From: Bacteroidetes bacterium SW_9_63_38
GTDB lineage: Bacteria; Bacteroidota; Rhodothermia; Rhodothermales; Salinibacteraceae
Assembly (NCBI GenBank): GCA_003022435.1
Contig: PXUA01000014.1
Span: forward strand, 1 to 64,000
Direction: 5' to 3'
Length of the DNA stretch: 64,000 nucleotides
In this document: piece by piece, positions 5,787 through 43,297 of the stretch
How positions within the stretch are numbered: the stretch's first letter is position 1
Layout: each line of letters starts with the position of its first letter
Notes under the pieces: model-generated
What the model was told of the DNA's origin: nothing
The model's input: only the letters and a program-made list of their open reading frames with translations
Databases searched by the model: none
Translations under genes and position numbers: made by a program

Positions 5787-5921
5787 CGGAGCGCCGGTTG
5801 GGATGCAGAGTGCCGGGACGCGCCGATGGCACAACAAAAAAACGCCGCATCCGTCCAGGTAGACGGGAAGCGGTGTAGGCCCTGGGGGTCGGGGACGATC
5901 CGGTGCGGATCGCCGGTTGTG

Positions 5922-6018: not shown

Positions 6019-6090
6019 AGTAAGTACAACTCTGCCTTGCCTACGGGGGGGAGATTTCGGTGTTTCGGCGAGGACTACACTCGTTTGTGG

Positions 6091-10740: not shown

Positions 10741-12340
<1,600 letters not shown>

Positions 12341-21676: not shown

Positions 21677-21782
21677 AGATGCCTTCCGGATGCCGCACGT
21701 GCTCGGCGCCGCGGGATTGCCACCGACATATCTGCCGTGTTGGACGAGACGGTGGATCCATCCCCGTGTGTACGGGGTCACC
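21677..21782 (-). repeat. Degenerate CRISPR repeats beyond the old end of array 1
   Basis: 21755-21782 matches the array 1 repeat except at two positions, and lies 434 bp from the array. Exactly 33 bases further left (spacer 21722-21754), 21677-21721 ends in GCGGGATTGCC. It can fold like the long-loop repeats beyond array 2 (outer TTCCG/CGGGA-type stem, inner GCCG/CGGC). The single repeat is secure. The second is a tentative reading based on spacing and fold. Confidence 0.6.
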
Positions 21783-22216: not shown

Positions 22217-24745
22217 GGTCTATCCTCGTGTGTACGGGGTCACCGCCGGCGGCGATAGGGTTCGCCTAACGCATTGGGGTCTATCCCCGTGTGTACGGGG
22301 TCACCCGAGTAGGTCTTCCTCAACCGCGTCGATGATCGGGTCTATCCCCGTGTGTACGGGGTCACCTCAACATGAGGTCATGGAAGGGGCCAAATCTATG
22401 GTCTATCCCCGTGTGTACGGGGTCACCGGCTTCAGCTTTTGGTTGATCTGCTGGTAGATGGGTCTATCCCCGTGTGTACGGGGTCACCACATGGCCGCCC
22501 CGGAGTCGCTTCTCCAGAAGAGGTCTATCCCCGTGTGTACGGGGTCACCGTGTGCCAGTCGCCCTCGACGACACACATGCAGGGTCTATCCCCGTGTGTA
22601 CGGGGTCACCGCGATGGGTGCATGGACGAGGTGCAGATGCTGGGGTCTATCCCCGTGTGTACGGGGTCACCTATTGAGGACATCCGAAGCGCGTTTGGGT
22701 CTAAGGTCTATCCCCGTGTGTACGGGGTCACCTATTTCCGACTCCACCATCCCTAGTTCCTCGACGGTCTATCCCCGTGTGTACGGGGTCACCCACGTCC
22801 AGCTCGCTTTACGCAGTCGCGTGGGAGGTCTATCCCCGTGTGTACGGGGTCACCGGACCCTGCCCGCTTCGGGGACGACGATACTGCGGTCTATCCCCGT
22901 GTGTACGGGGTCACCTACCGAGCTTGCTGAACTTAACTCGAAAACACAGGTCTATCCCCGTGTGTACGGGGTCACCCGACTCTTGTCTCTATCGCCCCGT
23001 CAAGCGCAAGGTCTATCCCCGTGTGTACGGGGTCACCCGTCGCGGAAGGAGCAGAGCGGGGCGCGAACCGGGTCTATCCCCGTGTGTACGGGGTCACCCG
23101 GCTGCAGCCCAGCGCGTCGGCCACCGCCGCCGGTCTATCCCCGTGTGTACGGGGTCACCAGGCCGGGGTGTCAAAAATCATCGATGCTTCTGGGTCTATC
23201 CCCGTGTGTACGGGGTCACCACGCTAGAAATGGCGAATACAACGTGACGGTGAGGTCTATCCCCGTGTGTACGGGGTCACCCTCTGGACAGACGGTCGTA
23301 GAGGTTGAGCAGAAGGTCTATCCCCGTGTGTACGGGGTCACCCGGTGACCGACCTGGTCAAGAGCTTCAGCTTCAGGTCTATCCCCGTGTGTACGGGGTC
23401 ACCCTCTGCGGCGTCGCGCTTGGCGTAGAGGGTGAGGGTCTATCCCCGTGTGTACGGGGTCACCACGAGGTAAGCGACCCCACGCCTGTGCTTTGTCGGT
23501 CTATCCCCGTGTGTACGGGGTCACCGAGTACACGCTTCACGCCGCCGACCCGATCGGCGGTCTATCCCCGTGTGTACGGGGTCACCGTGCCCGATCCGGC
23601 GAAGCCTGGGCTGGTGACGGGTCTATCCCCGTGTGTACGGGGTCACCAAGATCATTCTGCAAGCAAGTGGGAGGGCGATAGGTCTATCCCCGTGTGTACG
23701 GGGTCACCTGGCTGATGAGGCTCCCGACCGGGTGGACCGACGGTCTATCCCCGTGTGTACGGGGTCACCCCCGGCCCCACGTCGGAAAATGCGCAGTACC
23801 GGGGTCTATCCCCGTGTGTACGGGGTCACCACGGCGCCTGCGTCGTAGTAATACTGCTTCGACGGTCTATCCCCGTGTGTACGGGGTCACCGTCCCAGGC
23901 TTGTCGACGAGCATCGACTCCATAGGTCTATCCCCGTGTGTACGGGGTCACCGGATCCGCAAGGGCGCGCCTCTCTGCAACCGAGGGTCTATCCCCGTGT
24001 GTACGGGGTCACCGGACCCGCAGTCAAAGACAGAGATTTATACACAGGTCTATCCCCGTGTGTACGGGGTCACCGGATACTTTACTTTAGACACTCAACT
24101 GGTCCACGGTCTATCCCCGTGTGTACGGGGTCACCGGTCACCTCGTCGGGCCACTCTACCGGTTCGGAGGTCTATCCCCGTGTGTACGGGGTCACCACCC
24201 GAACCTCCACCTTCCGGGTCCTGCGGCACGGTCTATCCCCGTGTGTACGGGGTCACCAAGAACTGGCTGACGTAGACGATGTGCCGGCGCGGTCTATCCC
24301 CGTGTGTACGGGGTCACCGGCACCAAACGCCACCGCGGATACAATTTGCCAGGTCTATCCCCGTGTGTACGGGGTCACCGCGACCAGGAGGGGCAGGACG
24401 CGAATGAGAGCAGGTCTATCCCCGTGTGTACGGGGTCACCGGTTGAACGCCCTACATCGAGGAATCGGGCCAAGGTCTATCCCCGTGTGTACGGGGTCAC
24501 CATTGCCAGTACATGGTAGCGGGGGTAGTAAGACGGTCTATCCCCGTGTGTACGGGGTCACCTTTCTCCTGCTCATCGAGGGGAGGAAGGGGCCGGGTCT
24601 ATCCCCGTGTGTACGGGGTCACCTCCAAGTGGTATTTCTACCGTATCGGTGCCTGAGGTCTATCCCCGTGTGTACGGGGTCACCATACGAATGTTGTAGT
24701 CCGCGCTTCCGCACAGGGGTCTATCCCCGTGTGTACGGGGTCACC
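22217..24745 (-). CRISPR. Type I-E CRISPR array 1: 42 repeats, 41 spacers
   Basis: The 28-base repeat on the plus strand reads GGTCTATCCCCG-TGTGTA-CGGGGTCACC, and the period is a constant 61, so spacers are 33 nt. 42 repeats of 28 plus 41 spacers of 33 fill the interval exactly. The reverse complement, GGTGACCCCG...CGGGGATAGACC, aligns with the E. coli I-E repeat and its ATAAACC handle, so the array is transcribed leftwards and the leader is at the right. In agreement, the only altered repeat is the leftmost (CCTCG for CCCCG at 22217-22244). The hairpin CCCCG/CGGGG is the expected Cas6e substrate. No two spacers looked alike. Confidence 0.98.
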
Positions 24746-26097: not shown

Positions 26098-26976
26098 TCA
26101 CGCGTCACGATCAATCAGTTCCTTGACGGCGTCGATCATGTCGGGGATCACTCTGTCGTCCTTGAGGGTGCTGCCGGCCATCTTGCGGGCGGTGGGCTCG
26201 ATGTCGCGGCCGGGCTGCTGCTGGACCTTCTTGGCGGCGCGGAAGGCGACGGGCAGGGCGACGGAGCTGCGGAAGAGGTCGGCGATGTCCAGGGCGAAGG
26301 CGTGGCCGGAGGACTCGTGGATAAAGCCGAGCTCGGGCACGGCGCCGGTGACGGCCACGGCAATGCGCGCGGCCCCGTACAGCGCCGTCACGGCGTGGTT
26401 GATCCCGTGATTGACGGTGTCGTTCGAGTCGGGGTTATTGCGGTCGTAGCGGCGTCCGTTCCACTCGACCCCGTACTGATCGGCCAGGTTCTGATAGACC
26501 TTTTTGACGCGCCGCCCCTCGATGCCGCGGAGGGAGTCGAGGTCGCGCTGGTGGGCGGGCAGCTCGCCCCCGAGGCGTCGCCGATACATGTCGCGGGCTA
26601 CATCGACGCGGGCGTCCTCGTCGGCCCACAGCGTGGCGTGGCGGCGCGCCCGGTCGGCACTGTCGGGGCCGAAGGGCATGCTCACGGCGTAGAGGCGCAC
26701 GCCCTTAGAGCCGACGGCCAGCAATCCCGTGTCGCGGCGGGCCAGGATGCGGAGGGCGTCGTGGCTCACCACGCCGCCGGGGCCGAGCAGGAGGGTGGAG
26801 ACCTGCTGGTAGGGGATGTCGTAGGCCCCAGGCTCCAGGTCGTCAAAGCCGGCGGTGGTGAAGACGAGGTTGCCGTCCTCGACGGCGAGGCGGCCACGCT
26901 CTAACCACATGAGCCCGTGGCGGTCGGCGTGCGGCACGCGGGCGCTTTCGAGGCCGAGGCGTCCTTTGAGCGGCAT
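26098..26976 (-). CDS. cas1: Cas1, type I-E integrase
   Basis: The start at the ATG at 26976 gives MPLKGRLGLESARVPHADRH, the normal I-E N-terminus; the frame is open further upstream. It is 292 residues long. The metal-binding site has the His in GFIHESSGHAFALDIADLF and the Asp pair in that motif. The position of the first acidic ligand (Glu in E. coli) falls at Asp in RYDRNNPDSNDTVN. Cas1 inserts new spacers at the leader end. It lies between cas6e and cas2, separated from cas6e by about 1.2 kb of broken toxin-antitoxin genes, so it may no longer share the effector transcript. Confidence 0.95.
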   Translation of the reverse strand: MPLKGRLGLESARVPHADRHGLMWLERGRLAVEDGNLVFTTAGFDDLEPGAYDIPYQQVSTLLLGPGGVVSHDALRILARRDTGLLAVGSKGVRLYAVSMPFGPDSADRARRHATLWADEDARVDVARDMYRRRLGGELPAHQRDLDSLRGIEGRRVKKVYQNLADQYGVEWNGRRYDRNNPDSNDTVNHGINHAVTALYGAARIAVAVTGAVPELGFIHESSGHAFALDIADLFRSSVALPVAFRAAKKVQQQPGRDIEPTARKMAGSTLKDDRVIPDMIDAVKELIDRDA

Positions 26977-27234
26977 CGGTTCAGTGTCGAATTTCGAAGG
27001 GCGAGTTGCGAATGACGGACGGTCGGACGCCGAGTGTGCCCTTGGGGTTGGACGCCTCTTTTGCTGTTGGTCGATCTTCCTGCAGAAAATGAGCGGAGGC
27101 CTGGATGCGTGGAGGCACCGGTGCTCGATATTGAATCGGCCCCCGTCCATGCCACAGCCGAATCGCGACTGCTAGAGAATTGAGTTTAGATGTGAGATGA
27201 CCCAGGAGGTGGACACATTGGAAGGAGAAAATCA

Positions 27235-27584
27235 TCAAGTATAGAGCAGGGGCCCGTCGCGCTTCTCTGGAAGCGATCTGGAAGACGGAATATTTCCACG
27301 TCGGTGCTTTTGCACATTCTGGTCCACGAGCAGCCGCATTACGACGTCGATTCCGTGGTTCGCGGATAGACGCGCCCAGACTGGAGTCGCCCGTGCGCGT
27401 AGCGCAGAGCAGGCCTGGATGTCCTCCCGAGAGAGGGCGGAATACTGATCGAGGATGTCCTCGGTCGACCAGTCCTCGGCCAGCAGTTCAACGACCCGTT
27501 CAACGGCGATTCGGGTCCCGGCCACGACCGGCTCTTTCCGGTGAGTACGTCCGAATCGGTCTCGATGCGATTGCGCCAAGCCAT
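27235..27584 (-). pseudogene. DUF433 antitoxin joined to a DUF5615-like toxin stub, frameshifted
   Basis: The true start is the ATG at 27584 (MAWRNRIETDSDVLTGK). One base is missing from an A run near 27537, and the frame resumes as KEPVVAGTRIAVERVVELLA, then EDWSTEDILDQYSALSREDI, a DUF433 antitoxin. Near its end a second change runs it into MRLLVDQNVQKHRRG, which looks like the first residues of the PIN-like DUF5615 toxin that normally follows. Nothing remains of the rest of the toxin. The module is dead. Confidence 0.65.
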
Positions 27585-27627
27585 AATGACAAACGGGTTT
27601 GCGAGGTTCTTGCCTACCAACGTGTGC

Positions 27628-27895
27628 TCACGTTGCTGCTTTCTTGGAACTGTACTCTTGCACGATGGTGCCCCCGGCCGCTTCTGCCACCTCCATGGCG
27701 TCGTCAAGCCCCTTTGAGATCTCTTCCCCCGAGAATCGCATCCCTACAGTGCAGGCAGACGTACGCCGGAACGTGCTTCACTACGAGCGTGGTCTCGTCC
27801 CGCTCAAGAGTCATCGTGGTCGTGTCTTCCCGATAGGTTCCGGTTGGACAGTACATGCACTGCGTTCCTTCGGGGGTAGGCTCGCTGTCATTCAT
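27628..27895 (-). pseudogene. YgiT-type zinc-finger antitoxin with a 1-nt insertion
   Basis: From the ATG at 27895 the protein has two CxxC zinc motifs (CMYCPTGTYRED and VCLHCRDAILG) as in YgiT/MqsA-type antitoxins. An extra G in a G run near 27732 shifts the frame to an early stop at 27704. Removing it gives EEISKGLDDAMEVAEAAGG then TIVQEYSSKKAAT to a stop at 27628, a normal family ending. The start codon overlaps the stop of the upstream DUF4258 gene by ATGA, the usual toxin-antitoxin arrangement. Confidence 0.75.
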
Positions 27896-28175
27896 AATCG
27901 CTGGCTGTAATCACTTGTCCATTCATCCGGCTCGGTGCGCGGGTCGTAGACCGTTATGATCAGAGTACATCCCTCCTTGTCTGCTGCTACAACGTGAAGG
28001 GGGCCTCGCCGGTCCCGTGGAGGAGCAAATAGCTGGGACCGCGGCCCGTGTCCGGGTAGGGCTCGATCATCGTGCCCTCTCGAAGAGCCTCCTCGATCTC
28101 CGGTTCTCGAACGCCGAGTTGGCGCCGTCGGTGCTCTCCGTGATCGGAGAAGAACACGTTTTCTGGGTGGGGCAT
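27892..28175 (-). pseudogene. DUF4258 toxin-like gene with a 1-nt deletion
   Basis: From the ATG at 28175 the frame reads VFFSDHGEHRRRQLGVREPE, then IEEALREGTMIEPYPDTGRG and PSYLLLHGTGEAP. It then stops prematurely because one C is missing from a C run near 28005. Adding it back gives LHVVAADKEGCTLIITVYDP and RTEPDEWTSDYSQRL, the characteristic DUF4258 ending. Its stop overlaps the YgiT-type antitoxin start. Both genes of this pair are therefore inactivated by single-base homopolymer changes. Confidence 0.75.
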
Positions 28176-28193
28176 GGTACAGAAAAGAGACTG

Positions 28194-28973
28194 TTACGCG
28201 CGGCGCACCTTGAGCATGCCGTACCCGAAGCTCTTGTGGCGCCCGAGGCCGGAGCGGAGGAGGTCGACAAAGGCACTACTGTCGGTGACTGTCAGGGTGC
28301 CGGTCAGGGTGACGTCGGGCCGCTTGATCGTGTCGGCTTTTCGTTCGCCGTTGTCGGTTTTCGGCACGCGGCGCGTCATGCGCTCGATGGAGAAGCGGTC
28401 CATGCCGATGGAGTGGGGCTCGGCGCCGCCGCGGAGGTCAAACTGTCGCCGGAGCCAGTCGCGGTACACCTGTTCGCGGCTCACGTCGTCTTCGGGCCGC
28501 GTCCAGGCCTCGGCGAGGAAGACGTCCAGCTCGTCGCCCTCGTCCCAGGTGCGGGTGTCCCCGTTTTGGTTCACACCCTCCCCCGCGGAGGCCTTGCGGA
28601 CGACGGGGCAGGCGCGGAGCTCGAACTGGAGGGTTATGCCGTCGGGGAAGGTGTCCGGCATCGGCTTGGCGGCAAGGCCGTCCCAGTCGCAGATTTCGTA
28701 GACCGTGGGGCTGGCGTCGAGCTGCGCGTTTGCCTGGAGCGTGTCGGCATCCGCTGCTGTGTAGCCGAGCACGCGCGCTCGCCGTCCGTTCTGGGCGTCG
28801 GTTTCAATGGCGAACGGCTGCGGGGCGTCGTCGCCGAAAAGCTCGCCGAGTGCGCAGTGCACGAGGTAGCCGGTGTCCGTGCGGTCGAGGGGGAGGTGCA
28901 GCATCTTCCCGAGCGTGGTCAGGCCCTTGGCGTCGAGGCCGAGCTGCACCATGTGGAAGTCCGAGTCGGACAT
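28194..28973 (-). CDS. cas6e: Cas6e, crRNA-processing endoribonuclease
   Basis: 259 residues from the ATG at 28973 (MSDSDFHMVQLGLDAKGL). The tail LLRSGLGRHKSFGYGMLKVR is the glycine-rich RNA-binding loop of Cas6e (CasE/Cse3). Cas6e cuts at the base of the CCCCG/CGGGG repeat hairpin and stays bound to the 3' end of the crRNA in Cascade. Both arrays share the 3' handle CGGGGATAGACC, so one Cas6e could serve both. It starts 27 bases after cas5 in a tight operon. Confidence 0.93.
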   Translation of the reverse strand: MSDSDFHMVQLGLDAKGLTTLGKMLHLPLDRTDTGYLVHCALGELFGDDAPQPFAIETDAQNGRRARVLGYTAADADTLQANAQLDASPTVYEICDWDGLAAKPMPDTFPDGITLQFELRACPVVRKASAGEGVNQNGDTRTWDEGDELDVFLAEAWTRPEDDVSREQVYRDWLRRQFDLRGGAEPHSIGMDRFSIERMTRRVPKTDNGERKADTIKRPDVTLTGTLTVTDSSAFVDLLRSGLGRHKSFGYGMLKVRRA

Positions 28974-28999
28974 GAAGAGACAGGCAGCAGTGAGAAAGG

Positions 29000-29740
29000 T
29001 TACGTTTGGGGCCGAACGGTGCCGTTTACGATCCACCGCTCGCCGACGTGGATCTGATTGTGCCAGTCGCGCCGGTCGGTGACGGGCTCCCGCAAATCCA
29101 CGTCCAGCGCCTCGTCGGAGGGATTGTCGGCGTCCGGGCGGGTAGGCCACCAGGCTGCGTACGAGGGATTGCCATCGGCACGGTCGTGGAGCGGGGCCTG
29201 GACGAGAGCATCCGGCAGTGTGTTGACCTGCATCCGACCGGTGAACAGCGATCCTGCGGGGAGGCACGGCTTGCGCCCGAGGAAGAGAGGGCGCGCCGGA
29301 TGTGTAAGGGCCGTTTCGAGGTCGTCGAGCGTTGGGGACTCGTCCGGCGCGTTCAGCGTGACGGCCACAGTGTGGACGGCGTCCGCCCAGTAGTCGCGAT
29401 GCCGAATGTGCGTGCCGCCGCTGGCGGAGCCGCCCGCTCGGCTCTCTGTATGGCCGTAGGTGGTCCAGGCCCGATCGTCGTCCATGTACGGTTTAGACAG
29501 GTCCACGGTCTGATAGTCCTCAATCAGGCGGCCCCGCCGGTCCTGGCGCGAGGCGTAGCGGAGCCGCTCCTGCAGGCGTTCGAGGCGGCCGAACTCGCTG
29601 TGGTCGAATCCAAGCGCGTTGCCCAGCAGCCCCGTCATCATCGATAGCGCCGGGTAGGGCTGAATTTCGCCCTGATTGTCAACAATGGGGGCGCCGAAGC
29701 TCATGAGCGGCGCGTCGAAGCGCAAAAGAAGAATGTCCAT
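29000..29740 (-). CDS. cas5: Cas5e, Cascade subunit
   Basis: 246 residues beginning MDILLLRFDAPLMSFGAPIV, the Cas5e (CasD) N-terminus. They go on through YPALSMMTGLLGNALGFDHS, IEDYQTVDLSKPYM and LFLGRKPCLPAGSLF. Cas5e caps the 5' handle of the crRNA in Cascade. It lies between cas7 (48-bp gap) and cas6e on the minus strand. Confidence 0.95.
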   Translation of the reverse strand: MDILLLRFDAPLMSFGAPIVDNQGEIQPYPALSMMTGLLGNALGFDHSEFGRLERLQERLRYASRQDRRGRLIEDYQTVDLSKPYMDDDRAWTTYGHTESRAGGSASGGTHIRHRDYWADAVHTVAVTLNAPDESPTLDDLETALTHPARPLFLGRKPCLPAGSLFTGRMQVNTLPDALVQAPLHDRADGNPSYAAWWPTRPDADNPSDEALDVDLREPVTDRRDWHNQIHVGERWIVNGTVRPQT

Positions 29741-29788
29741 TTCGGACTTCTCATTCGTTATGGGACACGTGCGATCAAAGAATCGGGG

Positions 29789-31072
29789 TCATCCAGCCTC
29801 GGTGACCGTATCGGCGGCCCACTTGGCAATCTCGGGCACCGGCGTCGTATCGTCGAGGCCAAGTGCGTCTTGCAGGGCACTCGAATCGTTCGTTGCGGAG
29901 AGCTTCGCCTCTGCGGTGCGTCCGTACATGCCGTTGAGGTCGTCGACGTACGACGCAAGGGCGTCATAGCTGTTTTCGAGCACGTTCCCCTCCTTCGACA
30001 CGGGCTCCTGGAAGGCATTGGCCATGGTGCGGGGCTGGGCCGTGCCCGCTTCTGCGATCAGGCACTGGGCGTAGGCGTACGGCGCCGTCGATCCCAGCTT
30101 CGCCCCCGGGGAAACGCGCGTCATAAGGTGGACGAAGCGGTGCACGACTTCCGAGGCCAGCGTCCGGTCGGCGTCGGACCAGTCGTCACGCTCGCATCCT
30201 TCGAGGTTAGAGACGAGGAGAGGCACGTCGATGACGACGTAGCTGTAGAAGAGACCACTCGTGAGTTCCTGGCTGTTGATGTGCCCGGCCCCCATTTCGC
30301 CGCTTTCCTCAGGCTGATCGCGGCGCAACTCGTCGACGGCGGAGAAATAGTCGCTTTCGCTTTCCTCTTTATGCGTCGTAAACGCGTGAGCCACGTGAAT
30401 AGCAGCGTCCCCTCGGGCCAGCACGTCGCTCGTGGCCATGCGGCCGAAGAGAGCGGCATCGAGGCCGGACGCCAGATTCAGCCCCTTCAGGTTCTTCTTG
30501 ACCTTGCGACTCTTGATCAGGTCGGACTTTCGAATCGCGTCGGCCACGTCGCCGACGGCATCACTGTCAGGCACGCCATCGCTCTCCCAGAAGACCGGAA
30601 AGTCATCCCTGACGCTCTCGATGACCTCCTTGGCGAGCGATCGCAGATATCGCATCTCCGGGGCACCGAAGATGGTGACCTGATTGGTATCTAGCGCATC
30701 ACTGATTTCGTCGTCCGATTCCGCCGTGATGGCGTCTTTGACGGTCGACTTGTTCGCGGTGCTGCCAGAGACGATGAGTTCTTTTAAAGAGGTCGTTGCG
30801 GCGCGGACGAGAGGCGCCGGGGGTCCGTCGTTCACCAGTGGTTGGGCAACCCTGCGGCGGAAGGTTTCCCGCGAGCGGAGCGATTCCTCCACGTCGTCGA
30901 TTCCGTAGAGTGCGTGCTCCCCGTCGAAGTTGCGCCAGTGGTACTTGAGGCACTGCGACGAGACGCGTGTCCGGGTAGCCCCGCCGAAGGGCAATCTCTT
31001 TGCGAACCCGGCATCGTCGCGGTTCAAGAGCGTTCCGGGGTAGGAGGTGAGGGTGTGAAACTGTAGAAACAT
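29789..31072 (-). CDS. cas7: Cas7e, Cascade backbone subunit
   Basis: From the ATG at 31072 the protein starts MFLQFHTLTSYPGTLLNRDD, the I-E Cas7 (CasC/Cse4) signature. It includes RTRVSSQCLKYHWRNF and VAHAFTTHKEESESDYFSAV. The frame extends to a TTG at 31105 but the ATG fits the family. Six copies of Cas7 would coat the crRNA spacer. Length, 427 residues, is somewhat above that of E. coli Cas7. It lies 55 bp after cse2. Confidence 0.95.
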   Translation of the reverse strand: MFLQFHTLTSYPGTLLNRDDAGFAKRLPFGGATRTRVSSQCLKYHWRNFDGEHALYGIDDVEESLRSRETFRRRVAQPLVNDGPPAPLVRAATTSLKELIVSGSTANKSTVKDAITAESDDEISDALDTNQVTIFGAPEMRYLRSLAKEVIESVRDDFPVFWESDGVPDSDAVGDVADAIRKSDLIKSRKVKKNLKGLNLASGLDAALFGRMATSDVLARGDAAIHVAHAFTTHKEESESDYFSAVDELRRDQPEESGEMGAGHINSQELTSGLFYSYVVIDVPLLVSNLEGCERDDWSDADRTLASEVVHRFVHLMTRVSPGAKLGSTAPYAYAQCLIAEAGTAQPRTMANAFQEPVSKEGNVLENSYDALASYVDDLNGMYGRTAEAKLSATNDSSALQDALGLDDTTPVPEIAKWAADTVTEAG

Positions 31073-31127
31073 GATCGGCTGGAAAGTGAATGGTTGAGAA
31101 GTCAAGCATACGTGTGTCCGAGGGCGG

Positions 31128-31754
31128 CTACTCCTGCTCCTGCGCGTGGAGGGTGCCGTAGTAGCTGCGAGAAATGCGCAGGCGGGTTTCTTCGGCGGTG
31201 GTCCAATCCTGGCCGATGAGGAGCCAGCCCACGTCTACCCAGTTGGCCGCCTGCGATTTACTGGCAAGATACTGCGCCATGCGGCGGACGTGCTTCTCAA
31301 GCGTTTCGCCGCGGGCTTCCATGAGGCGCACGAACCGGAGCTTCGACCAGCCCGCTTCGGCAAGAGCCCGTCCGAGCGGCTCCCGATAGTTGTGGAGACC
31401 GGCACAAATGGCCATTCCCATTGCCAGCGTGGCCATGCGCCGCTCATACACGTCGTGATCCAGCCCGCCCCACGGCTCTGCCTCGTCGAGGTCTAGCAGC
31501 AAATTCCAGAGGGCGGGGGTGAACGGCTTTTCGGGGGAAATGCGCCGGAGCTCGGCGAGCGTGCCCGTGCCGAGGGCCCCCTCCGTCGCCATCATCTTCG
31601 CGATCTTGCCGATGGAACTGGCAAATTGCTTCGGACGATCGTCGTCCGCCACGTCCTCAGTGAGTGCGATCCGTTCGGGGGAAGGCGACTCGGAAGGTTC
31701 GTCCGAATCGTCGGGACCCGATTCAGACAGATCGAATTCGAGTTGGTCATTCAT
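31128..31754 (-). CDS. cse2: Cse2 (CasB), Cascade small subunit
   Basis: I start at the ATG at 31754 (MNDQLEFDLSESGPDDSDEP), 22 bp after cse1. After an acidic N-terminal stretch of about 55 residues, the helical Cse2 core appears: IGKIAKMMATEGALGTGTLA, FTPALWNLLLD, RMATLAMGMAICAGLH, and LMEARGETLEKHVRRMAQYL. Two Cse2 copies line the R-loop in Cascade. The acidic extension is unusual compared with E. coli and may reflect a salt-adapted proteome. Confidence 0.92.
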   Translation of the reverse strand: MNDQLEFDLSESGPDDSDEPSESPSPERIALTEDVADDDRPKQFASSIGKIAKMMATEGALGTGTLAELRRISPEKPFTPALWNLLLDLDEAEPWGGLDHDVYERRMATLAMGMAICAGLHNYREPLGRALAEAGWSKLRFVRLMEARGETLEKHVRRMAQYLASKSQAANWVDVGWLLIGQDWTTAEETRLRISRSYYGTLHAQEQE

Positions 31755-31776
31755 GAGTGCACACCTCTGAGTTGAT

Positions 31777-33315
31777 TCAAGCAATTGGAGCAGTGGATGG
31801 AGCAGTGGAGGAGGCTCCGTCCAAAACATCGTCGATGCGGGAGTGGAAGACGGACCGGGCGGCGCTCAGTGCTTCCCAGCGGCGGATGTTGGGGAGAGGA
31901 ACGCTGTCCTGGGCCTCGTCGAACTGCTGTTCCGCCTCGTTTCGGAGGAACGCTTCCCATTCATGTTCGGCCTCCGCTTCGTCCTCGGCCTCAACCGACG
32001 CCCACAGGTAGTCAAAGAAGTGATCGTCCACCGTGTCGTCGAACGCGTCAATCCAGGGCTGGACCTGCTCCCAGTCCACGTCCTCGTCTTCTCCAGCGCT
32101 GAGAAGAGCGGCTACGGCGGGGCGAAGCACATTGGACTCGACCTTCGAGACCAGTTTCACGCGCTGCTTCGCGCGGTCAGCAAGCTCATCCATCGTCTCT
32201 TTGTCCGGAAACAAGCCATACACCTCTTCTGGAATGGGGATGATGCGATGGTGAAGCCCTTCTGTTTTTCCCTGACCGCGCACCATTGCCCGGGCAGTCA
32301 GATACATCGCACCATCATCCCCGTTGTGTCTCTGCAGGGAAGCCGGGCGGACGTATTCGCCAAATACAATTTCCTGTAGCTTTTCGTAGGTAAACCCCTC
32401 CCCGCTAAGGGTCAGCGACTTTTCCTCCTCGGAGTCGACCGGGGTCCAGGGATCTTCCGTGCGCCCGTTGAGCGAGGAGGGGGCATCAATGCGCTGGCCT
32501 TTCGAGGTGGCGCGCCAGCAGACGATGTCTCCCCCTTCTTCTGTGAATCGGATTCGACGACAGACCTCAACGAAATACGGGTCGCACTTGCGGAGCGGGA
32601 GTGCGCTCGACTTTTCACCATTCCACGGCACCGTCCAGATCAGCGTGTGCCCGTCCTCGATGTCGTAAAGCGTAGTGAGGTCATCGTGCTGGTCAACGAG
32701 AACGTTCAGGTCGCGGAGAAAGCGAGCCCCAAACGAGAGTTCTGGAGATAAGCCTAGAAATGGTCTCGAACCGTAGCCGGAATTGATTCTCACAATTCCA
32801 TAATTCCCACGTCCCATGTAGCCCTCCATCGTCTGCAGCGTGACAAGGGCATAGATCCAGTGCTCCGGATCCGGATGTGAAATGCGCTGCTGTTTTACGT
32901 CGTGGTTCTTTGAGGTCACCAGCACGTCGAGATTGGACGGCGACGGGATGTCGCTTTTGAAGTTGGCGTCGTCAAGTGATCCTTCGGGCACTGGGGGCTG
33001 GAGGAACGCAGGTTCTTCTAGGTCCGGAACGACGAGACGCCACGCATTCTCGTTGCCGTCGGCCAGGGTGAGCAGAGCGCCGCGCCACTCTTCGGCGGTG
33101 TCTGGAATGGTCCCGTCGTTCGCACGGACCACAGCCATCGCTGCCAGCTGCACCAGAAACGAGTACCAGGCCTGCTCCTGATGGGCCTGCAATGCATCAA
33201 AACTGATTATCTCGTCCTCGTACAGTGCACTCAGTACTTCCGGAAGTGCCATCGAGGACGATCCTTGTCGGGTCTGAACCTGAAAAAGTCGGTCTTCCAG
33301 AAGGGAATTTTTCAT
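31777..33315 (-). CDS. cse1: Cse1 (CasA/Cas8e), PAM-recognising large subunit
   Basis: 512 residues from the ATG at 33315 (MKNSLLEDRLFQVQTRQGSS). Family blocks are ALPEVLSALYEDEIISFDAL, AWYSFLVQLAAMAVV, WIYALVTLQTMEGYMGRGNY and GIVRINSGYGSRPFLGLSP. Cse1 binds the PAM, recruits Cas3 and opens the target. It heads the operon cse1-cse2-cas7-cas5-cas6e. An 830-bp gap with an unknown ORF and hairpins separates it from cas3. Confidence 0.95.
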   Translation of the reverse strand: MKNSLLEDRLFQVQTRQGSSSMALPEVLSALYEDEIISFDALQAHQEQAWYSFLVQLAAMAVVRANDGTIPDTAEEWRGALLTLADGNENAWRLVVPDLEEPAFLQPPVPEGSLDDANFKSDIPSPSNLDVLVTSKNHDVKQQRISHPDPEHWIYALVTLQTMEGYMGRGNYGIVRINSGYGSRPFLGLSPELSFGARFLRDLNVLVDQHDDLTTLYDIEDGHTLIWTVPWNGEKSSALPLRKCDPYFVEVCRRIRFTEEGGDIVCWRATSKGQRIDAPSSLNGRTEDPWTPVDSEEEKSLTLSGEGFTYEKLQEIVFGEYVRPASLQRHNGDDGAMYLTARAMVRGQGKTEGLHHRIIPIPEEVYGLFPDKETMDELADRAKQRVKLVSKVESNVLRPAVAALLSAGEDEDVDWEQVQPWIDAFDDTVDDHFFDYLWASVEAEDEAEAEHEWEAFLRNEAEQQFDEAQDSVPLPNIRRWEALSAARSVFHSRIDDVLDGASSTAPSTAPIA

Positions 33316-33338
33316 AGGATCGGATTTTTCTTGTTGAG

Positions 33339-33800
33339 CTATGCTGGCACAGCGAGAGAAGGAAATCGCCTCCGGGGAACGGTGTGCGAAAGTTTGCCAG
33401 CAGAACCGCGCACGCGAAACGAGCAATTCGGCGGGAGTTCTAGGTGAATTGCCTGCTCCGTTGAGTTGTCGTCCAACTCAATGATCTGCTTCCATTCTTG
33501 AGACCGCAACTCGCAGCATTCAGAGCCGCACGCAATCCAGAAGTAGATGCGCCTGAAAAGATCTCTCTGGGCATCGTCCTTTCTATTAAGCTCGGCCAAC
33601 TTTTGGAGTAGAGGCCGACCGAGAGTTGCACACCATCCTGATCTGCTCGATCGAGCAGCTATCAGGAAGAGTTGCTTCCCATGATCGACCTCAAAGTGGC
33701 CGATCTTCCTCTCTCGGACGAGAAACTTTTGAATTGCTCCGGTGTCAATGGCTTCGATAAGGAATGAACCGGCGTTGTGGTTGCTTCTGAGGATTGACAT
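33339..33800 (-). CDS. Hypothetical protein between cas3 and cse1
   Basis: 153 residues from the ATG at 33800: SFLIEAIDTGAIQKFLVRER, HFEVDHGKQLFLIAARSSRS, LQKLAELNRKDDAQRDLF, and CSFRVRGSAGKLSHTVPRRR. The composition is protein-like but less GC-rich than its neighbours. No domain was recognised. It ends 24 bases before the cse1 start on the same strand, so it may be co-transcribed with the Cascade operon. The longer frame to 34142 runs through hairpins and is unlikely. Confidence 0.45.
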   Translation of the reverse strand: MSILRSNHNAGSFLIEAIDTGAIQKFLVRERKIGHFEVDHGKQLFLIAARSSRSGWCATLGRPLLQKLAELNRKDDAQRDLFRRIYFWIACGSECCELRSQEWKQIIELDDNSTEQAIHLELPPNCSFRVRGSAGKLSHTVPRRRFPSLAVPA

Positions 33801-33865
33801 AACTATGGTAAAGCGCTGGGCGTAAGTAATCGGGCAAGGTGAAAACGTCTCGGCACAAGTCCTGG

Positions 33866-33944
33866 TGAGTTGCAACTCATCAGAACCGAGGAGCCCCGTC
33901 GATTCTCGTCGACGGGGCTTCTGCATTTCCCTGCGTTTGCAGGG
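33866..33944. promoter_or_regulatory. Palindrome and two hairpins upstream of the Cascade operon
   Basis: TGAGTTGCAACTCA (33866-33879) is a perfect 14-bp palindrome, a good operator candidate. 33893-33920 is an 11-bp perfect hairpin (AGCCCCGTCGA with TCGACGGGGCT, loop TTCTCG). CCCTGC-GTTT-GCAGGG follows at 33930-33945. The middle hairpin resembles the repeat stems but lacks the repeat flanks. No T tract follows on either strand, so an attenuator, RNA stabiliser or orphan repeat-like RNA are all possible. Confidence 0.5.
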
Positions 33945-34104
33945 ATACCTCTGGTTTTTCTGACAGCATGATCTCAACTGTCGGGCTATTGCCGAATTTA
34001 TCGGCATCACGCTTGCCCCAATGAAGCCGGAGACGCTTTGTTCCAATACGGTCGAGTACATGTCCAAAAGGCAATAGCAGCGAGCATTTGCCCCATGTGG
34101 CCAT
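33880..34104 (-). CDS. Possible small ORF after cas3
   Basis: A 74-codon frame starting 48 bases after the cas3 stop: MATWGKCSLLLPFGHVLDRI, LRLHWGKRDADKFGNS, VEIMLSEKPEVSLQTQG. Its last third coincides with the hairpins described at 33888-33944, so it may be a shadow of an RNA element. No family was recognised. Confidence 0.25.
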   Translation of the reverse strand: MATWGKCSLLLPFGHVLDRIGTKRLRLHWGKRDADKFGNSPTVEIMLSEKPEVSLQTQGNAEAPSTRIDGAPRF

Positions 34105-34151
34105 CGTACCGCTGCCATTTGCGGACAGGCGGTCTTCCTCAAAAAAACAGT

Positions 34152-36770
34152 CTATTCGGTATCATCGCGGGTCAACCCCAACCTGCCGTAGCGAAAGCGT
34201 TTCTCATTGGCGGTGAAGAAAAACCCTTCATCAGTCTCCTGCACGTCGCTGGCCTCAAGATCTTCGAGAGAAACAGCTTCTTCTCCTACGTCCCGAATAA
34301 GGTGTTCGGGAATCGAGAGCGCAGAAATTGACGGTGTCTCGTTGGTGGGGGCGAGGGGGCTCGGCATAGGATCCGAAAATTCCACGCGCACGTCGTCCTG
34401 ACCGAGCCGCGTCTTCACTTTTTCCAGGTCTTCCCGGAATTGCTGATAGCCGAACGCTTCATGGCGCTGGAGCAGGACGTGCTTGGCAGTCACGGCGTCG
34501 GCGGTTCGTTCGCCCACCACCCAGTTCTGATGCCGGTCCCACGCCTCAGCGACCTCGTTCGGCACGCTTTCCATTTTCTCCGCCACGAGATCGCGAAGCA
34601 CATGGGGATGGGTTCCCCGCTCCACCAGCTGCCGGTTGTCGCCCGGGATGGTCCACGTTGCCAGATCCTCGTCCTCCAGCAGATGCCACGTCGCGTCAAT
34701 AACGCGGAGATCCGAGTACACCGTCCCGAGCCCATGGTCGCCTTTCAAGCCCTGGCCGTCTTTCTCGCCGCCCCGAACGATGGCTGAACTCAGATCGCGC
34801 TCTCCCGGCGTCAGAACCATGCATTCCGGATCCTCAAATCCAGCCGGATGTGCTCGATCATGCCGGTGCAGGCGCCCGATCCGTTGCAGCAAAACATCCA
34901 CGGGGCAGAGATCCGTCATCATCAGGGAGGCCGAAATGTCGAGGGACATCTGCACCGTCTGCGTGGTCACGGCGATGACGCCGCGAATGGGAATCTCGTT
35001 GCCGTCTTCGTCCTCTTCTCCAAAGGCATGCTCGATGGCGGCGTCGAGCCGTTTTCGGTCGTCGTCGGCGTAGCGGGAGTGATGGGGGACCGGCGTATTC
35101 CCTACGGTTAAGAGGAACTCCGACGCCTCGTCGCCCAATCGCCTCTCAATCGCCTCCTGAACGCGCCGACAATCCTCTACCAAGTTGCGAATGACCAGCA
35201 CGCGTGCTCCCGCTCGTGCCGCTTCGATGGCGCGGCGGGCAATCGCATTGGGATCATCCGCCATGCGTTTGGCCGTCATCGACACCTCTTTGCAGTAACC
35301 GGACGGTTTCGTCACCTCCGGCGTCGGGTCGTCGCGGTCGGCACTGACGTGGGTGACGAGCGGGTATCCGATCTTTTGAGCGTCTTCCGGCTGAGGCAAA
35401 TCGTCGTCTCGGAACGGGGTTTTCGTTAATCGAAGCCGCGATTCCGTCCCGAGCGTCGCCGACATCAGCATCGCGTGCCCGCCCGCCGCAAGGTGATGAT
35501 CGAGTACCGCTGAGAGGAGGCGTGTCATGTAAACGTCGGAGGCATGAACTTCATCGACGACCAGGAAATGGCGCAGGAGTGCAGCGCCTCGCATGTGTGC
35601 GTGACGTACCTGCAGGGCTGACAGCAACACCTGATCGATGGTCCCGACGACAATTGCCCCAGCCAGATACCGCTTCGGCCCCTCGGCGGCCCACCGTCGC
35701 TCACGTGCCTCATTCTCTTCCATCTCGTCGTGCCACTGCACAGTGAAGGGCTCGACGGGGGTACCCTCCACCCCGTCGATTTTGTAGTAGCCCGGCACGG
35801 CCTGCACGACGGGCGGGGGCCCGGCCTCGTGTTGCTCGTAGACTCGCTGGACGGTGTCATACACCCGCGTGTAGAGTTGCTTGGCCGCCGTGCGGGTGGG
35901 AACAGCAAAGTACATCCCATCGACCATTTTCTGCTGGTACAGGCGGAAAAATCGGGCAATCGCCGCTTCGGTCTTTCCGGATCCCGTGTCGGACTCTAGC
36001 ACCGTCAGGCCGCCATTCTCGTAGACGGGATGCGAGAGGCCGACCTCCTGAACCGGATGGGGAGTCCAGGCTTCTTTCTTAAGAATACCCGAAAAGCCGA
36101 CGGGTGTCTCCAGCGATTCCTGGTACGACTCGGCCAGCATCGCTTGCTTTGTCAGTCGCTTCTCGGTGATCTTGTGAGCCCGTTTCAAAAAATTCTGCTC
36201 CTGATTCTCAGCATATGGGAAGCCCGACCCGATCCAGTCTGCAAGGGTGAGTACGCCGTTGAATGCATGCTGGAACTCAGACCGGCCTGCGGGAAAGGGA
36301 GCCCCGTCACGAAAGGCCTTCGGAAACCAGTCCTGTACGTGATTGGCGAGACGTTCGAGTGCTTGCACTGGATCACGGGAATTCGTCTCCCAGAGAGACG
36401 TGTCCTGATCGTGAGTGCTATCTACGGGTTCTCCGTGATGGGCCCAGGTTGCGCGGAGAAAATGATCGGGGTCCTTTCGGCCTTCGAACCACTCCATCAT
36501 TACCTCCAGTCCAAGCGGCAAAAGAAGCTGTTCTTGCAGAGACGGGGCGCTGAGAACGTCAACAATCGGTTTGACGTGTCCTGGGCTGCGTCCGCTTCCA
36601 GAGAACGCTTGATTCTGGAATCCATGATTCACCTTCCCAGCGTCGTGGATGGCCGCCAGCGCCGAGAGGCGAGCGACGTGCACGTCCGACAGGTCGTTCC
36701 AGTCGGCGAGTGACGCGAGACGGTCCCTGAGAATCGTCCGCTGCAAGAGGGCTTCCGTCACGGCCGCCAC
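34152..36770 (-). CDS. cas3: Cas3 helicase-nuclease, type I-E, N-terminus uncertain
   Basis: HD nuclease markers are LAAIHDAGKVNHGFQ, TWAHHGEP and LTLADWIGSG. Helicase motifs are complete: ESDTGSGKTEAA (Walker A), FLVVDEVHASD (DEVH box), MLMSATLG, and TQTVQMSLD with LLQRIGRLHRHDR. Cas3 unwinds and degrades the target DNA. The first usable start is a GTG at 36770, but the same frame stays homologous upstream (NQFWAKLHPDYPEKKDWHPL then LAHSADVAAVTEALLQ) to a stop at 36855 without any ATG, GTG or TTG. The first conserved histidine (HPLLAHSADV) is therefore coded but not obviously translated. Either a rare start is used or the start codon is lost. Confidence 0.9.
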   Translation of the reverse strand: MAAVTEALLQRTILRDRLASLADWNDLSDVHVARLSALAAIHDAGKVNHGFQNQAFSGSGRSPGHVKPIVDVLSAPSLQEQLLLPLGLEVMMEWFEGRKDPDHFLRATWAHHGEPVDSTHDQDTSLWETNSRDPVQALERLANHVQDWFPKAFRDGAPFPAGRSEFQHAFNGVLTLADWIGSGFPYAENQEQNFLKRAHKITEKRLTKQAMLAESYQESLETPVGFSGILKKEAWTPHPVQEVGLSHPVYENGGLTVLESDTGSGKTEAAIARFFRLYQQKMVDGMYFAVPTRTAAKQLYTRVYDTVQRVYEQHEAGPPPVVQAVPGYYKIDGVEGTPVEPFTVQWHDEMEENEARERRWAAEGPKRYLAGAIVVGTIDQVLLSALQVRHAHMRGAALLRHFLVVDEVHASDVYMTRLLSAVLDHHLAAGGHAMLMSATLGTESRLRLTKTPFRDDDLPQPEDAQKIGYPLVTHVSADRDDPTPEVTKPSGYCKEVSMTAKRMADDPNAIARRAIEAARAGARVLVIRNLVEDCRRVQEAIERRLGDEASEFLLTVGNTPVPHHSRYADDDRKRLDAAIEHAFGEEDEDGNEIPIRGVIAVTTQTVQMSLDISASLMMTDLCPVDVLLQRIGRLHRHDRAHPAGFEDPECMVLTPGERDLSSAIVRGGEKDGQGLKGDHGLGTVYSDLRVIDATWHLLEDEDLATWTIPGDNRQLVERGTHPHVLRDLVAEKMESVPNEVAEAWDRHQNWVVGERTADAVTAKHVLLQRHEAFGYQQFREDLEKVKTRLGQDDVRVEFSDPMPSPLAPTNETPSISALSIPEHLIRDVGEEAVSLEDLEASDVQETDEGFFFTANEKRFRYGRLGLTRDDTE

Positions 36771-40714: not shown

Positions 40715-41278
40715 TCACCCGTGCCAGCGCAGCCGCTTGACGCCGACGTCGGCCAGTGTGGTGAGGCCGCCGGTGTCGACGAGGTGCCAGAAGAGGGTGC
40801 GGGTGGCGAGGGCGTCGCCCACGGCCGTGTGCAGCGCCTCGTCGGGGGCGGCGTCGAACTGGGCGAGCAGGGGACCGAGCGAATAGTCGTCTGGGGCGTC
40901 CAGGAGCGCCCGGGCCAGGCCGAGGGTGTCGACGTAGCGGAGGTCGAGGCCAGGGTGTCCGAGTCGTTCGGCCTCGTAGGTGACGAAGCGAAAGTCGAAC
41001 GACAGGTTGTGCCCGACGACTACGCGGTCCTCAAGGACATCGAGCAGGCGAGGCAACCGGCGGGCAACCGCTTGATCGGACGGCGCGTCGTGGTCGCTTT
41101 TCCAGTCGAAGCGGATGCCGTTCTGGTCGACGACGGCGATCTCGCGGATGCGGCCGCCGCGGTCGGGACGTAGTGCCGTCGTTTCCAGGTCGAAGAAGAT
41201 CAGCGGGACGGTGCGGAGGGGACGGTCGGGCTGCACGGGGGCAATGCCCACATGAGAGGGAGACGCCAAGCAGGTCAT
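40715..41278 (-). CDS. DnaQ-like 3'-5' exonuclease (DEDDh)
   Basis: 187 residues with the three exonuclease motifs: LIFFDLETTAL (Exo I, Asp and Glu), VVVGHNLSFDFRFV (Exo II), and HTAVGDALATRTLFWH (Exo III with the catalytic His and Asp). No polymerase, helicase or GIY-YIG domain is attached. Stand-alone DnaQ-type enzymes proofread or trim 3' ends. In some I-E systems such a domain is fused to Cas2 or acts in trans to trim prespacers. Its place against the old end of array 2 makes that role worth testing. The first 25 residues before RTVPLIFFDLE are poorly conserved, so the start could be internal. Confidence 0.85.
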   Translation of the reverse strand: MTCLASPSHVGIAPVQPDRPLRTVPLIFFDLETTALRPDRGGRIREIAVVDQNGIRFDWKSDHDAPSDQAVARRLPRLLDVLEDRVVVGHNLSFDFRFVTYEAERLGHPGLDLRYVDTLGLARALLDAPDDYSLGPLLAQFDAAPDEALHTAVGDALATRTLFWHLVDTGGLTTLADVGVKRLRWHG

Positions 41279-41417: not shown

Positions 41418-41776
41418 GGGGAAATCCATTCTCACTTCCGAAGGGGAGCGGTATTGCGAGGCGATCAGAATGCATGATTCTTCGATCACGTCGGGGAGGG
41501 GGCGTCCCCGCTGCCGAACCGGCTCGACGTTGCGGCACCTACCCCGTGTCTCTTGGGCGACCTCAAAGCCTAATCGGGGCGATTTCCGCCATCGGCGCTC
41601 GTCCGGCTCTGGAGAGCTAACGAATGGAGGCTGCCCTCCCATGCGCTCACGGAGGGGCGATCCCGGCTGTCGAACGAGTTCGGCTCTGCGGAGCCACCGA
41701 TCATAAAGCCTCAAGAGACCTTGCGCTCTCGGGTCTATCCCCGCTGTCGGACCTCGTCCGACTCTGCGGGGCTACC
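41418..41776 (-). CRISPR. Degenerate long-hairpin repeat ladder beyond array 2
   Basis: Five repeat-like units at 41418-41466, 41500-41543, 41577-41621, 41655-41698 and 41732-41776 are separated by four gaps of exactly 33 bases. The last unit begins GGTCTATCCCCGC and ends TGCGGGGCTACC, the two ends of the array 2 repeat. It has 20 bases (TGTCGGACCTCGTCCGACTC) in place of the 3-base loop. The insert makes an inner stem GTCGGAC/GTCCGAC. In other units this is GCCGAAC/GTTCGAC or GTCGAGC/GTTCGGC, so pairing is largely kept while bases change. Degeneracy increases leftwards. A sixth unit may end at 41384, again 33 bases before the fifth. Confidence 0.85.
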
Positions 41777-41779
41777 GCA

Positions 41780-42409
41780 ATGGACCGGGTTATTGCCGAG
41801 CAGGAGGACGTTCCAGAGGCGATGAGTCGGCCGGACGTGGGCCCAATTAGCTTCTTATGGGGAGAGCCCGGGGATTCGAGTCAGGAATTTTCCGACGGAC
41901 ATGGTGTTTCCCACATCATTGCCAGACGAAACTGGGAGGGTAATGATGGTGAGCAGGTCGCCCGAAAAATGGTGGAGGTTCTGGCCTATGGAACTGTCGA
42001 TCGAGAGTATGGCCCTGAGAAAGCCCGGCGAGTGGATATAAAATATGACGGCCGCAAGGCTGTTTTATCGCTATTCCGTCATGGGAGCCGAGAGACGTGG
42101 CTTCTGACTGGATATGAGCTGTCAGACAATGAAAAGGCCTCCGATGGAGCCGGCGAAGCTTACGATTCGTCCGGCCCTACGCGCACCGGGCCTACACGTT
42201 ATCGTCCCGATGCGGGTGCGGAGGCTGGTGATAGTACGACGGGGGCCGATGGTAGTTCAGACTCGCAAGGGCCAGAAGCTAAGTTCAGCCGGGAGCCGAC
42301 AGACGGTTCTCAGGAAGAAGACAAATCCCAGGATGGAGGACAGGGCGCTGAGAGCCAGGGTCTATCCCCGCGGATGCGGGGCTACCAATCTTTCCGCCTT
42401 CGACCATGA
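41780..42409 (+). CDS. BECR-type (barnase/colicin E5-like) nuclease ORF inside the CRISPR array
   Basis: The ATG at 41780 is 3 bases after a degenerate repeat. The first 120 residues carry the phage polyvalent-protein nuclease pattern: MSRPDVGPISFLWGEPG, then HGVSHIIARRNWEG, MVEVLAYGTV, RRVDIKYDGRKAVLSLF, and ETWLLTGYEL. A low-complexity tail follows (TGADGSSDSQGPEAKFSREP) that also resembles the ends of such proteins. The frame reads into the first intact repeat and stops in spacer 1. The N-terminal parts of the parent phage protein are absent, so it may be a captured fragment. Catalytic His and Arg candidates (SHII, ARR) are present. It lies on the strand opposite to array transcription. 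Confidence 0.65.
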   Translation: MDRVIAEQEDVPEAMSRPDVGPISFLWGEPGDSSQEFSDGHGVSHIIARRNWEGNDGEQVARKMVEVLAYGTVDREYGPEKARRVDIKYDGRKAVLSLFRHGSRETWLLTGYELSDNEKASDGAGEAYDSSGPTRTGPTRYRPDAGAEAGDSTTGADGSSDSQGPEAKFSREPTDGSQEEDKSQDGGQGAESQGLSPRMRGYQSFRLRP

Positions 42410-43118
42410 ACCTGTGCTGGGTCTATCCCCGCGGATGCGGGGCTACCTGGAGCGAGAGTACACGATCGACCTCATCGCGAGGTCTATCCCCGCGGATGCG
42501 GGGCTACCAGCGTCCCGCCCCGTCCGCTACGATCAGTAAAAGGTCTATCCCCGCGGATGCGGGGCTACCAGATCCAACGCCTCGGCGATATACTTTACCT
42601 GAGGTCTATCCCCGCGGATGCGGGGCTACCAGTAAAGTATCTGATCAAGGAAGGAGAGGCCCAGGTCTATCCCCGCGGATGCGGGGCTACCCGCCCCTAC
42701 ATGAAGGCGCACCCTGTCGGTACGGGTCTATCCCCGCGGATGCGGGGCTACCGGGGAGCTGGGTACCATGAAGGCACAGCGCGAGGGTCTATCCCCGCGG
42801 ATGCGGGGCTACCTCGGCCGAACACGTATCCGTCCCCATCGGCGTCGGTCTATCCCCGCGGATGCGGGGCTACCCGCGGAATGATAGAGGAGCTGTCAAG
42901 CGCTTGCGGTCTATCCCCGCGGATGCGGGGCTACCAGCCCCTGCTCGTAGAGCCACCCAAAAAACCGGGGTCTATCCCCGCGGATGCGGGGCTACCAAAT
43001 CCGGGGACGGCTTTTATTGCTATTGGCTAGGTCTATCCCCGCGGATGCGGGGCTACCCCGAAGACGAGGCGGTAATCGTCGAGGTGCCCAGGTCTATCCC
43101 CGCGGATGCGGGGCTACC
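42359..43118 (-). CRISPR. Type I-E CRISPR array 2: 13 repeats, 12 spacers
   Basis: The 28-base repeat reads GGTCTATCCCCGC-GGA-TGCGGGGCTACC on the plus strand with a constant 61-base period, so spacers are 33 nt. 13 x 28 plus 12 x 33 gives exactly 760 bases. The repeat shares its first 12 bases and the CCCCG/CGGGG stem with array 1 but differs in the loop and last bases. Transcription is leftward with the same handle, CGGGGATAGACC, as array 1. All 13 repeats look identical. The old (left) end is broken off by the nuclease ORF, beyond which the long-hairpin ladder continues. Confidence 0.97.
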
Positions 43119-43297
43119 CTGCTACAAGTTGTCGTATCAGGGGCGAGAACACGCAAGCTGAGGTGTATCGACCGCCACTCTGTCACCTTCATCAGTGCTC
43201 TCGCCTCCACGCTTCAATTCCAGGCGAGTTCCATAGGAGGAGGGACAAATCTGTCGTCCCGCCGCCTTGCGCACGATGCGGCAGCACCACAAGGAGG
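43119..43297 (-). promoter_or_regulatory. Leader region of array 2
   Basis: Gene-free DNA upstream (minus sense) of the newest repeat. It ends CTTGTAGCAG next to the repeat, and array 1 also has AGCAG at this junction. CTCGCCT/AGGCGAG dyads lie near 43199-43227. No promoter boxes could be assigned. Confidence 0.4.

Follow-up and report, generated by a model that had tools for sequence, protein, structure and literature searches.

The window analysed here, the whole stretch of 64,000 nucleotides, carries on its minus strand at 41423-41776 five units of 44-45 nt, four strong and one weak, which are probably the fossils of a lineage-limited, stem-extended form of the type I-E CRISPR repeat that once worked in arrays. 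Each unit is built as a 28-nt I-E repeat whose 4-nt loop has been swapped for 20-21 nt forming a second stem of 7 bp. I-E repeats are usually 28-29 nt long, so that units of this size lie outside the ordinary range and constitute a variant of the repeat. In type I-E, the length of the repeat and its small hairpin are generally regarded as invariant; a loop extension that occurs naturally and conserves pairing would point to a far longer repeat being tolerated by Cas6e and by the Cas1-Cas2 ruler, and would provide a natural test of the ruler model. A search of the open-licence literature found no I-E repeat of this extended-stem kind.

The window lies on a contig of 139,777 bases (C14) in a genome of 2.84 Mb that is 83.8% complete (G000). 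Its relevant features are listed below, with bit scores from R2, a covariance model built from U1-U4 and one unit of a related genome (G017) found by BLAST.

22217..24745, minus strand: array 1, 42 type I-E repeats of 28 nt, 41 of them identical, with 33-nt spacers
26098..36770, minus strand: type I-E cas operon (cas1, cas6e, cas5, cas7, cse2, cse1, cas3), from NCBIfam and Pfam matches
40715..41278, minus strand: 3'-5' exonuclease-like gene, a neighbour of the I-E locus in several members of the genus
41423..41466, minus strand: U0, very degenerate fifth unit in the 33-nt register, 12.2 bits
41500..41543, minus strand: U1, degenerate stem-extended repeat, 44 nt, 48.9 bits
41577..41621, minus strand: U2, degenerate stem-extended repeat, 45 nt, 47.9 bits
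41655..41698, minus strand: U3, degenerate stem-extended repeat, 44 nt, 60.9 bits
41732..41776, minus strand: U4, intact stem-extended repeat, 45 nt, 63.6 bits
Within 41467..41731, minus strand: four spacers of 33 nt, each separating two units (41467-41499, 41544-41576, 41622-41654, 41699-41731)
41777..42358, plus strand: 582-nt insert reaching from U4 to the last 28-nt repeat of array 2; PBECR1 (PF18809, 3.7e-7)
42359..43118, minus strand: array 2, 13 identical type I-E repeats of 28 nt, with 33-nt spacers
43119..43180, minus strand: leader end of array 2, ...ACAACTTGTAGCAG adjoining the first repeat

All five units stand on the strand on which both arrays show their ...GATAGACC repeat end, and from this handle and the leader motif we infer that the leaders of arrays 1 and 2 are on the high-coordinate side; the leader in the window is that of array 2's 28-nt part. 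U4-U0 sit beyond the trailer end of that array, between the 582-nt insert and the exonuclease-like gene. The first-pass annotation had reported four units exactly where U4, U3, U2 and U1 are found, together with a weaker fifth, which is indeed present in register and fits best at 41423-41466 rather than at 41418-41466. It had also given their separation as the spacer size of the arrays, and all four gaps between U4, U3, U2, U1 and U0 are precisely 33 nt, the spacer length in both type I-E arrays. The arms of U4 are identical to those of the array 2 repeat at all 25 positions (12 + 13), with 20 nt in place of 3, as first described, and the repeat of a G011 array matches them equally well. With an outer stem of CCCCGC/GCGGGG and an inner stem of GTCGGAC/GTCCGAC, U4 RNA is predicted to fold into one long interrupted hairpin of -26.1 kcal/mol, against -12.4 in shuffles.

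The other units are less well preserved. U3 pairs at 6/7 inner and 5/6 outer positions, U2 at 4/7 and 4/6, and U1 at 7/7 and 5/6; the inner stems quoted in the first-pass annotation are correct. Genome-wide, U1-U4 score 47.9-63.6 bits (E 9.1e-10 to 2.0e-14), all four having helped to build the model; independent support is provided by the units outside the window. U0 scores weakly (E 0.018 over 1,701 bases, 1.4 over 131,506 bases); counting both strands, 0.022% of window positions reach its level of ungapped similarity, and its in-register place is therefore unlikely to be chance. Ungapped identity of the arms to the current repeat falls from U4 to U1 through 25, 20, 17 and 12 of 25, the last figure being too low because of gaps near the ends of U1, with U0 at 16; this loss of likeness with distance from the array corresponds roughly to ageing toward the trailer end.

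The insert that parts U4 from array 2 encodes a phage-type PBECR1 nuclease domain in an open frame that continues into the array, and is ~30% identical to stretches of Agrobacterium and Sinorhizobium phages, one of them annotated as DarB-like antirestriction. Array 1 has a detached distal 28-nt repeat of its own at 21755-21782, 434 nt from the 42nd repeat; the 434-nt stretch looks by eye like phage coding DNA and had no match in the phage collection. The inserts of the two arrays occupy the same relative place, and their edges fall at repeat edges, like gene-sized spacers.

Related units were sought with R2 in 27 genomes of the family and 114 of the order, of which the best 150 and the best 55 candidates per genome, respectively, were scored, so that weak units can be missed. 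Below E 1e-4 the family search yielded ten units among those 150 candidates per genome, namely five in the window's own genome (four in the window and one, C15, on contig 15), four in G017 (G17a-d) and one in G020 (G20). Among the best 55 candidates per genome, the order search returned the same ten and one match in G014 (E 8.6e-4), with convincing units in 3 of the 114 genomes. When the region was compared by BLAST with the 27 family genomes, the window matched itself and there was a single short further match, from which the G017 units were traced; blastn, which uses no structure model, links G17a to G17b, G17c, G17d, G20, C15 and U4. The presence of relatives in neighbouring genomes, a point on which the first-pass annotation had asked to be judged, is thus established, and one of the units found terminates an I-E array: C15 is the last repeat of a third array, whose 70 other repeats are identical, 28 nt long and read GGTACCTCCGCACACGCGGAGATAGACC, and it has the arms of those repeats and lies 33 nt from the last of them. 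The 28-nt repeat of the family is mostly GGTNNCYCCGC-NNNN-GCGGRGATAGACC.

The G017 units have array surroundings of another kind. G17a, G17c and G17d lie directly behind an array-type leader and have no spacers; the sequences immediately before them end TTGTAGCAGG, TTGTAGTAG and CTGTAGCAGG, ends common among leaders of the genus, and the three leaders close with TGTAGCAGG or TGTAGTAG, as is often the case in the genus's active arrays. G17b is near a broken exonuclease gene, at the place that the cas locus holds in relatives, and is probably the trailer-end repeat left when a deletion removed that locus; it is 80% identical to G17a over 85 nt running from the repeat into the trailer. No leader was seen at G17b or at the G020 unit. 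The handle ATAGACC follows the stem exactly in U4, C15 and G17c and is one base off in G17a and G17b, while stem or handle is altered in G20, G17d and U1-U3.

Further candidates were set aside. Weaker R2 matches of the family search were inspected down to E 0.0151 (8.6e-4 to 0.015): the G014 match (27.9 bits) is without repeat ends, leader or array and was judged chance, those at G000:C9 and G020:C66 are SAM riboswitches, and those at G000:C4:46058 and G014:C2 are without repeat arms. A first pattern scan of the genome_contigs collection, which may omit records very near the window's genome, returned 0 stretches; a second pattern returned 19, read one by one and none of them an extended repeat, those in L150, L157 and L159 being ordinary 28-nt arrays in which a spacer mimics an arm and the remainder looking like chance matches. 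Neither pattern matched anything in viral_contigs (0 matches), and among plasmids the unit region had 4 short matches, unrelated judging by the organisms.

The first-pass annotation had proposed covariance analysis, and in the six units outside the window changes on both sides of a pair with pairing kept are indeed seen. Across all ten units 87.5% of 160 cells pair, and both-side changes affect 7 pairs and 13 cells, where shuffles average 3.7 and 5.0. In the outside six, 91.7% of 96 cells pair and both-side changes occur at 7 pairs and 9 cells, against shuffled values of 2.9 and 3.0 (1/500 shuffles each), counts that lean toward pairing in that five of the six were chosen by a pairing-rewarding model, and that come from few sequences of shared descent. 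Four of the seven inner-stem pairs have changed on both sides in these six and still pair; between G17a and G17b, for instance, two inner pairs are exchanged on both sides (GGAC/GTCC against AAAC/GTTT). When partners were slid out of register, pairing dropped to 26-42%. The number of further pair types was in line with shuffles (106/500 for the ten units, 28/500 for the outside six). Single-sequence folding was clearly better than in shuffles (z below -2) for four of the ten, U4 (-5.5), C15 (-4.2), G17b (-3.5) and G17a (-2.3); G17d (-1.4), U2 (-1.0) and G17c (-0.5) do not stand out, G20, U1 and U3 are above 0, and U1-U3 fold no better than shuffles.

If such repeats were in use, their transcript would have been a single long interrupted hairpin, which Cas6e would have cut at the unchanged base of the outer stem, leaving the usual AUAGACC handle. 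Cas6e uses the outer stem and the handle; since both are kept in the intact units, the cut is predicted to fall as in 28-nt repeats. Since the two repeat ends flank the insert, Cas1-Cas2 would have copied all 44-45 nt. In the type I ruler studies as outlined in PMC6895254, a change of length upstream of the ruler motif shifts the second integration site equally, and on that outline copying of a longer repeat is to be expected; four or five consecutive long repeats with 33-nt spacers suggest that it happened. Pairing of the inner stem would have been under selection while the repeats were active. Repeats added later would have been of the 28-nt kind, so that the long form would be left only at trailer ends, the oldest parts, and in arrays collapsed to a leader plus one repeat.

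On the best reading, then, 28-nt repeats have superseded the long form, which persists at the trailer ends of arrays and where arrays have collapsed. Collapsed arrays do occur in the family: a spacer-less remnant in G016 (L086 2513-2540), a genome in which no I-E Cas7 was found, consists of a leader and a single 28-nt repeat, and its trailer opens like that of a G015 array. As array 2 and the C15 array each share their arms with their own long unit, the form must have changed within arrays on at least two occasions. The loops of the 28-nt repeats, ATCC and ACAC, occur in other species as well and, by eye, are not simple deletions of the long loops, a plain 45-to-28 deletion reproducing neither, so that replacement or repeated gain of the insert is possible.

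How far the long form marks array ends in general can be read from the family's 28-nt arrays. Of 25 counted, five run off the locus or contig, and the trailer end is readable in 20, a count that leaves out an irregular G012 array and further repeats of G018, G021 and G022. Long units stand at or beyond the trailer in 2 of the 20, both in the window's genome, and 18 have none. Most readable arrays end in 28-nt repeats, and the notion that a long repeat closes every array was therefore rejected. Both arrays of plasmid pSR118 of Salinibacter ruber SP73 likewise have 28-nt repeats only (0/2 with a long terminal repeat), and the available part of the report on this plasmid, which describes an I-E system with 105 spacers, names no unusual repeat (PMC6060240). 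One array, in G003 (L127 5451-7734), ends in long tandem units of ~231 nt, which contain a repeat together with trailer-like sequence.

These counts bear on the possibility, unlikely in our judgement, that the units are specialised terminal or anchor repeats whose long hairpin is kept at the trailer end for a role there, for example to stabilise or end the pre-crRNA or to prevent the last repeat from yielding a stray crRNA. In the C15 array only the last repeat is of the long form, G17b seems to be a trailer-end repeat that outlasted its cas locus, and four units (U4, C15, G17a, G17b) retain intact hairpins, two of them in a genome in which no I-E Cas7 or Cas6e was found; selection on terminal repeats is, moreover, reported in the available part of a study of Cas12a arrays (PMC6610086). 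But the 18 readable trailer ends without a long unit, the 28-nt arrays of pSR118, the run of four or five units in the window in place of a single terminal one, and the three G017 units directly behind a leader all speak against such a role. A fuller version seems rather improbable: in a clade of Salinibacter relatives the founder or anchor repeat would be a structurally selected 45-nt double-stem element, an empty array would consist of the leader and this element, acquisition would lay shortened 28-nt repeats before it, and array ends would keep an RNA structure with a role of its own.

A functionless palindrome that entered the repeat loop and was copied along, its pairing differences reflecting the variety of inserts and their decay, would account for insert cores that are alike across arrays with different arms, for the decay of U1-U3, and for a free 40-nt copy at G000:C4:38060-38099 (L194 361-400), whose core nearly equals that of G17a and which is without repeat arms. 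It is nonetheless improbable, in view of the both-side changes at 4/7 inner pairs outside the window and of the need for entry exactly at the loop in several repeats with different arms; of the other weak R2 matches examined, two are SAM riboswitches and the rest have no repeat arms. Decoys have also to be considered, for solitary repeat units have been proposed as viral decoys in the text available of PMC8616872, and G017 and G020, the two genomes with solitary units, yielded neither I-E Cas7 nor Cas6e. As to setting, U4 has a phage-type gene fragment next to it, one G017 unit lies beside pyrF, and viral_contigs contained no pattern match. That the units are solitary elements or small regulatory RNAs of this sort (Cas6e or Cascade decoys, or regulators) and store no spacers is very improbable given that the 33-nt register, the terminal place of C15 and the leaders at three G017 units are features of arrays. 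Degenerate sequence that lies beside the array by coincidence, which the poor conservation of U0-U3 might suggest, can scarcely be credited: it is refuted by the homologues, and the model scores and the spacing speak against it as well, the exact 33-nt register answering the objection of chance that the first-pass annotation had raised against itself.

The reading as fossils of a stem-extended repeat draws on the exact gaps, the ten strong units, the covariation, the terminal unit of C15, the leaders of G017, one of them at the pyrF site where G013 and G014 have 28-nt arrays, the collapsed array of G016, the supported pyrF branch around the carriers and G019, and the ruler studies. Counted against it are the failure to find, among the genomes searched, any array made mainly of 45-nt repeats, the two or more changes of form within arrays, the short loops that do not derive from the long ones by simple deletion, the good folding of only 4 of the 10 units, a Cas6e of ordinary type, the pairing-biased choice of units, and a pyrF tree that places G019 among the carriers. 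The first-pass annotation had inferred an older I-E array of 44-46-nt double-hairpin repeats; this idea is the best of the readings considered, in a lineage-limited form, for covariation, relatives and exact 33-nt spacing support it, but arrays dominated by 45-nt repeats were not found and the matches come from three genomes of one genus. Should it be right, it suggests that the form of a repeat may change in the life of an array, with a record kept at the trailer end, and CRISPR finders that require several alike repeats are expected to miss arrays of a leader plus one repeat.

Compared with known systems, the units share with 28-nt I-E repeats their arms, outer stem, 3' handle, leader motif and 33-nt spacers, and differ from them in a loop of 20-21 nt with its own 7-bp stem and a total of 44-45 nt. 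Like the terminal repeats of type V-A, as far as the available text of PMC6610086 describes them, the last repeat of C15 departs from the array consensus; there the terminal changes are expected to break processing, whereas the present units retain the outer stem, gain a further stem and are found at positions other than the last as well. Single repeats outside arrays recall the viral and proviral solitary units presented in the available part of PMC8616872, yet some of those found here follow array leaders and one is the last repeat of an array. Type VI likewise has additional RNA structure at the end of an array, where, in the brief description given of PMC13187072, a leader-repeat hairpin blocks stray crRNA; that hairpin sits at the leader end and belongs to type VI.

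The relationship of the carriers was judged from pyrF (orotidine decarboxylase), a 1131-aa protein having been dropped as a kinship marker for its many paralogues. The G017 protein is 88% identical to that of G020, 85% to that of G000, 81% to that of G019 and 74-79% to the others. On the DNA tree a branch supported at 91/95 separates G000, G017, G020 and G019 from the other genomes, and G019, which is 62% complete and gave no unit match, falls beside G020, so that the three carriers alone do not form one group; their label shows no clustering beyond chance on this tree (84/500 shuffles). A grouping that includes G019 is strengthened and a clean clade of three is weakened. Beside pyrF itself, G013 and G014 have 28-nt arrays and G017 a leader with one long unit, and no such repeat was seen by eye in 560 nt in the other ten genomes.

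The I-E operon of the window has matches for Cse1, Cse2, Cas7, Cas5e, Cas6e, Cas1e and Cas3, and its closest named counterpart in the plasmid collection is that of S. ruber SP73 pSR118 (71.9% identity over 78% of the query). By best local match of each gene to G011 (L105), DNA identity is 92-93% for cse1, cse2 and cas7, 72% for cas6e, 77% for cas5, 81% for cas3, 85% for cas1 and 77% for the exonuclease gene. By these comparisons the operon is a mosaic, which makes exchange of I-E parts between species likely, and such exchange could have brought the change of repeat form. Its Cas6e is of ordinary type and shares 85% identity with the Cas6e of G013 and of G015, where the arrays seen are of 28-nt repeats, and a Cas6e specialised for long repeats is accordingly unsupported. 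I-E Cas7 is present in 14 of the 27 family genomes and was not found in G017 or G020; Cas6e is present in 8 of the 13 genus genomes and again was not found in these two. The sole Cas1 match of G017 lies on another contig and, with the general Cas1 profile, scores far above the I-E Cas1 matches. The 3'-5' exonuclease-like gene is possibly an accessory gene of the I-E locus; it is also seen beside the I-E locus of pSR118. Elsewhere in the window, TPP and SAM riboswitches lie on the minus strand at 5911-6021 and 12215-12340.
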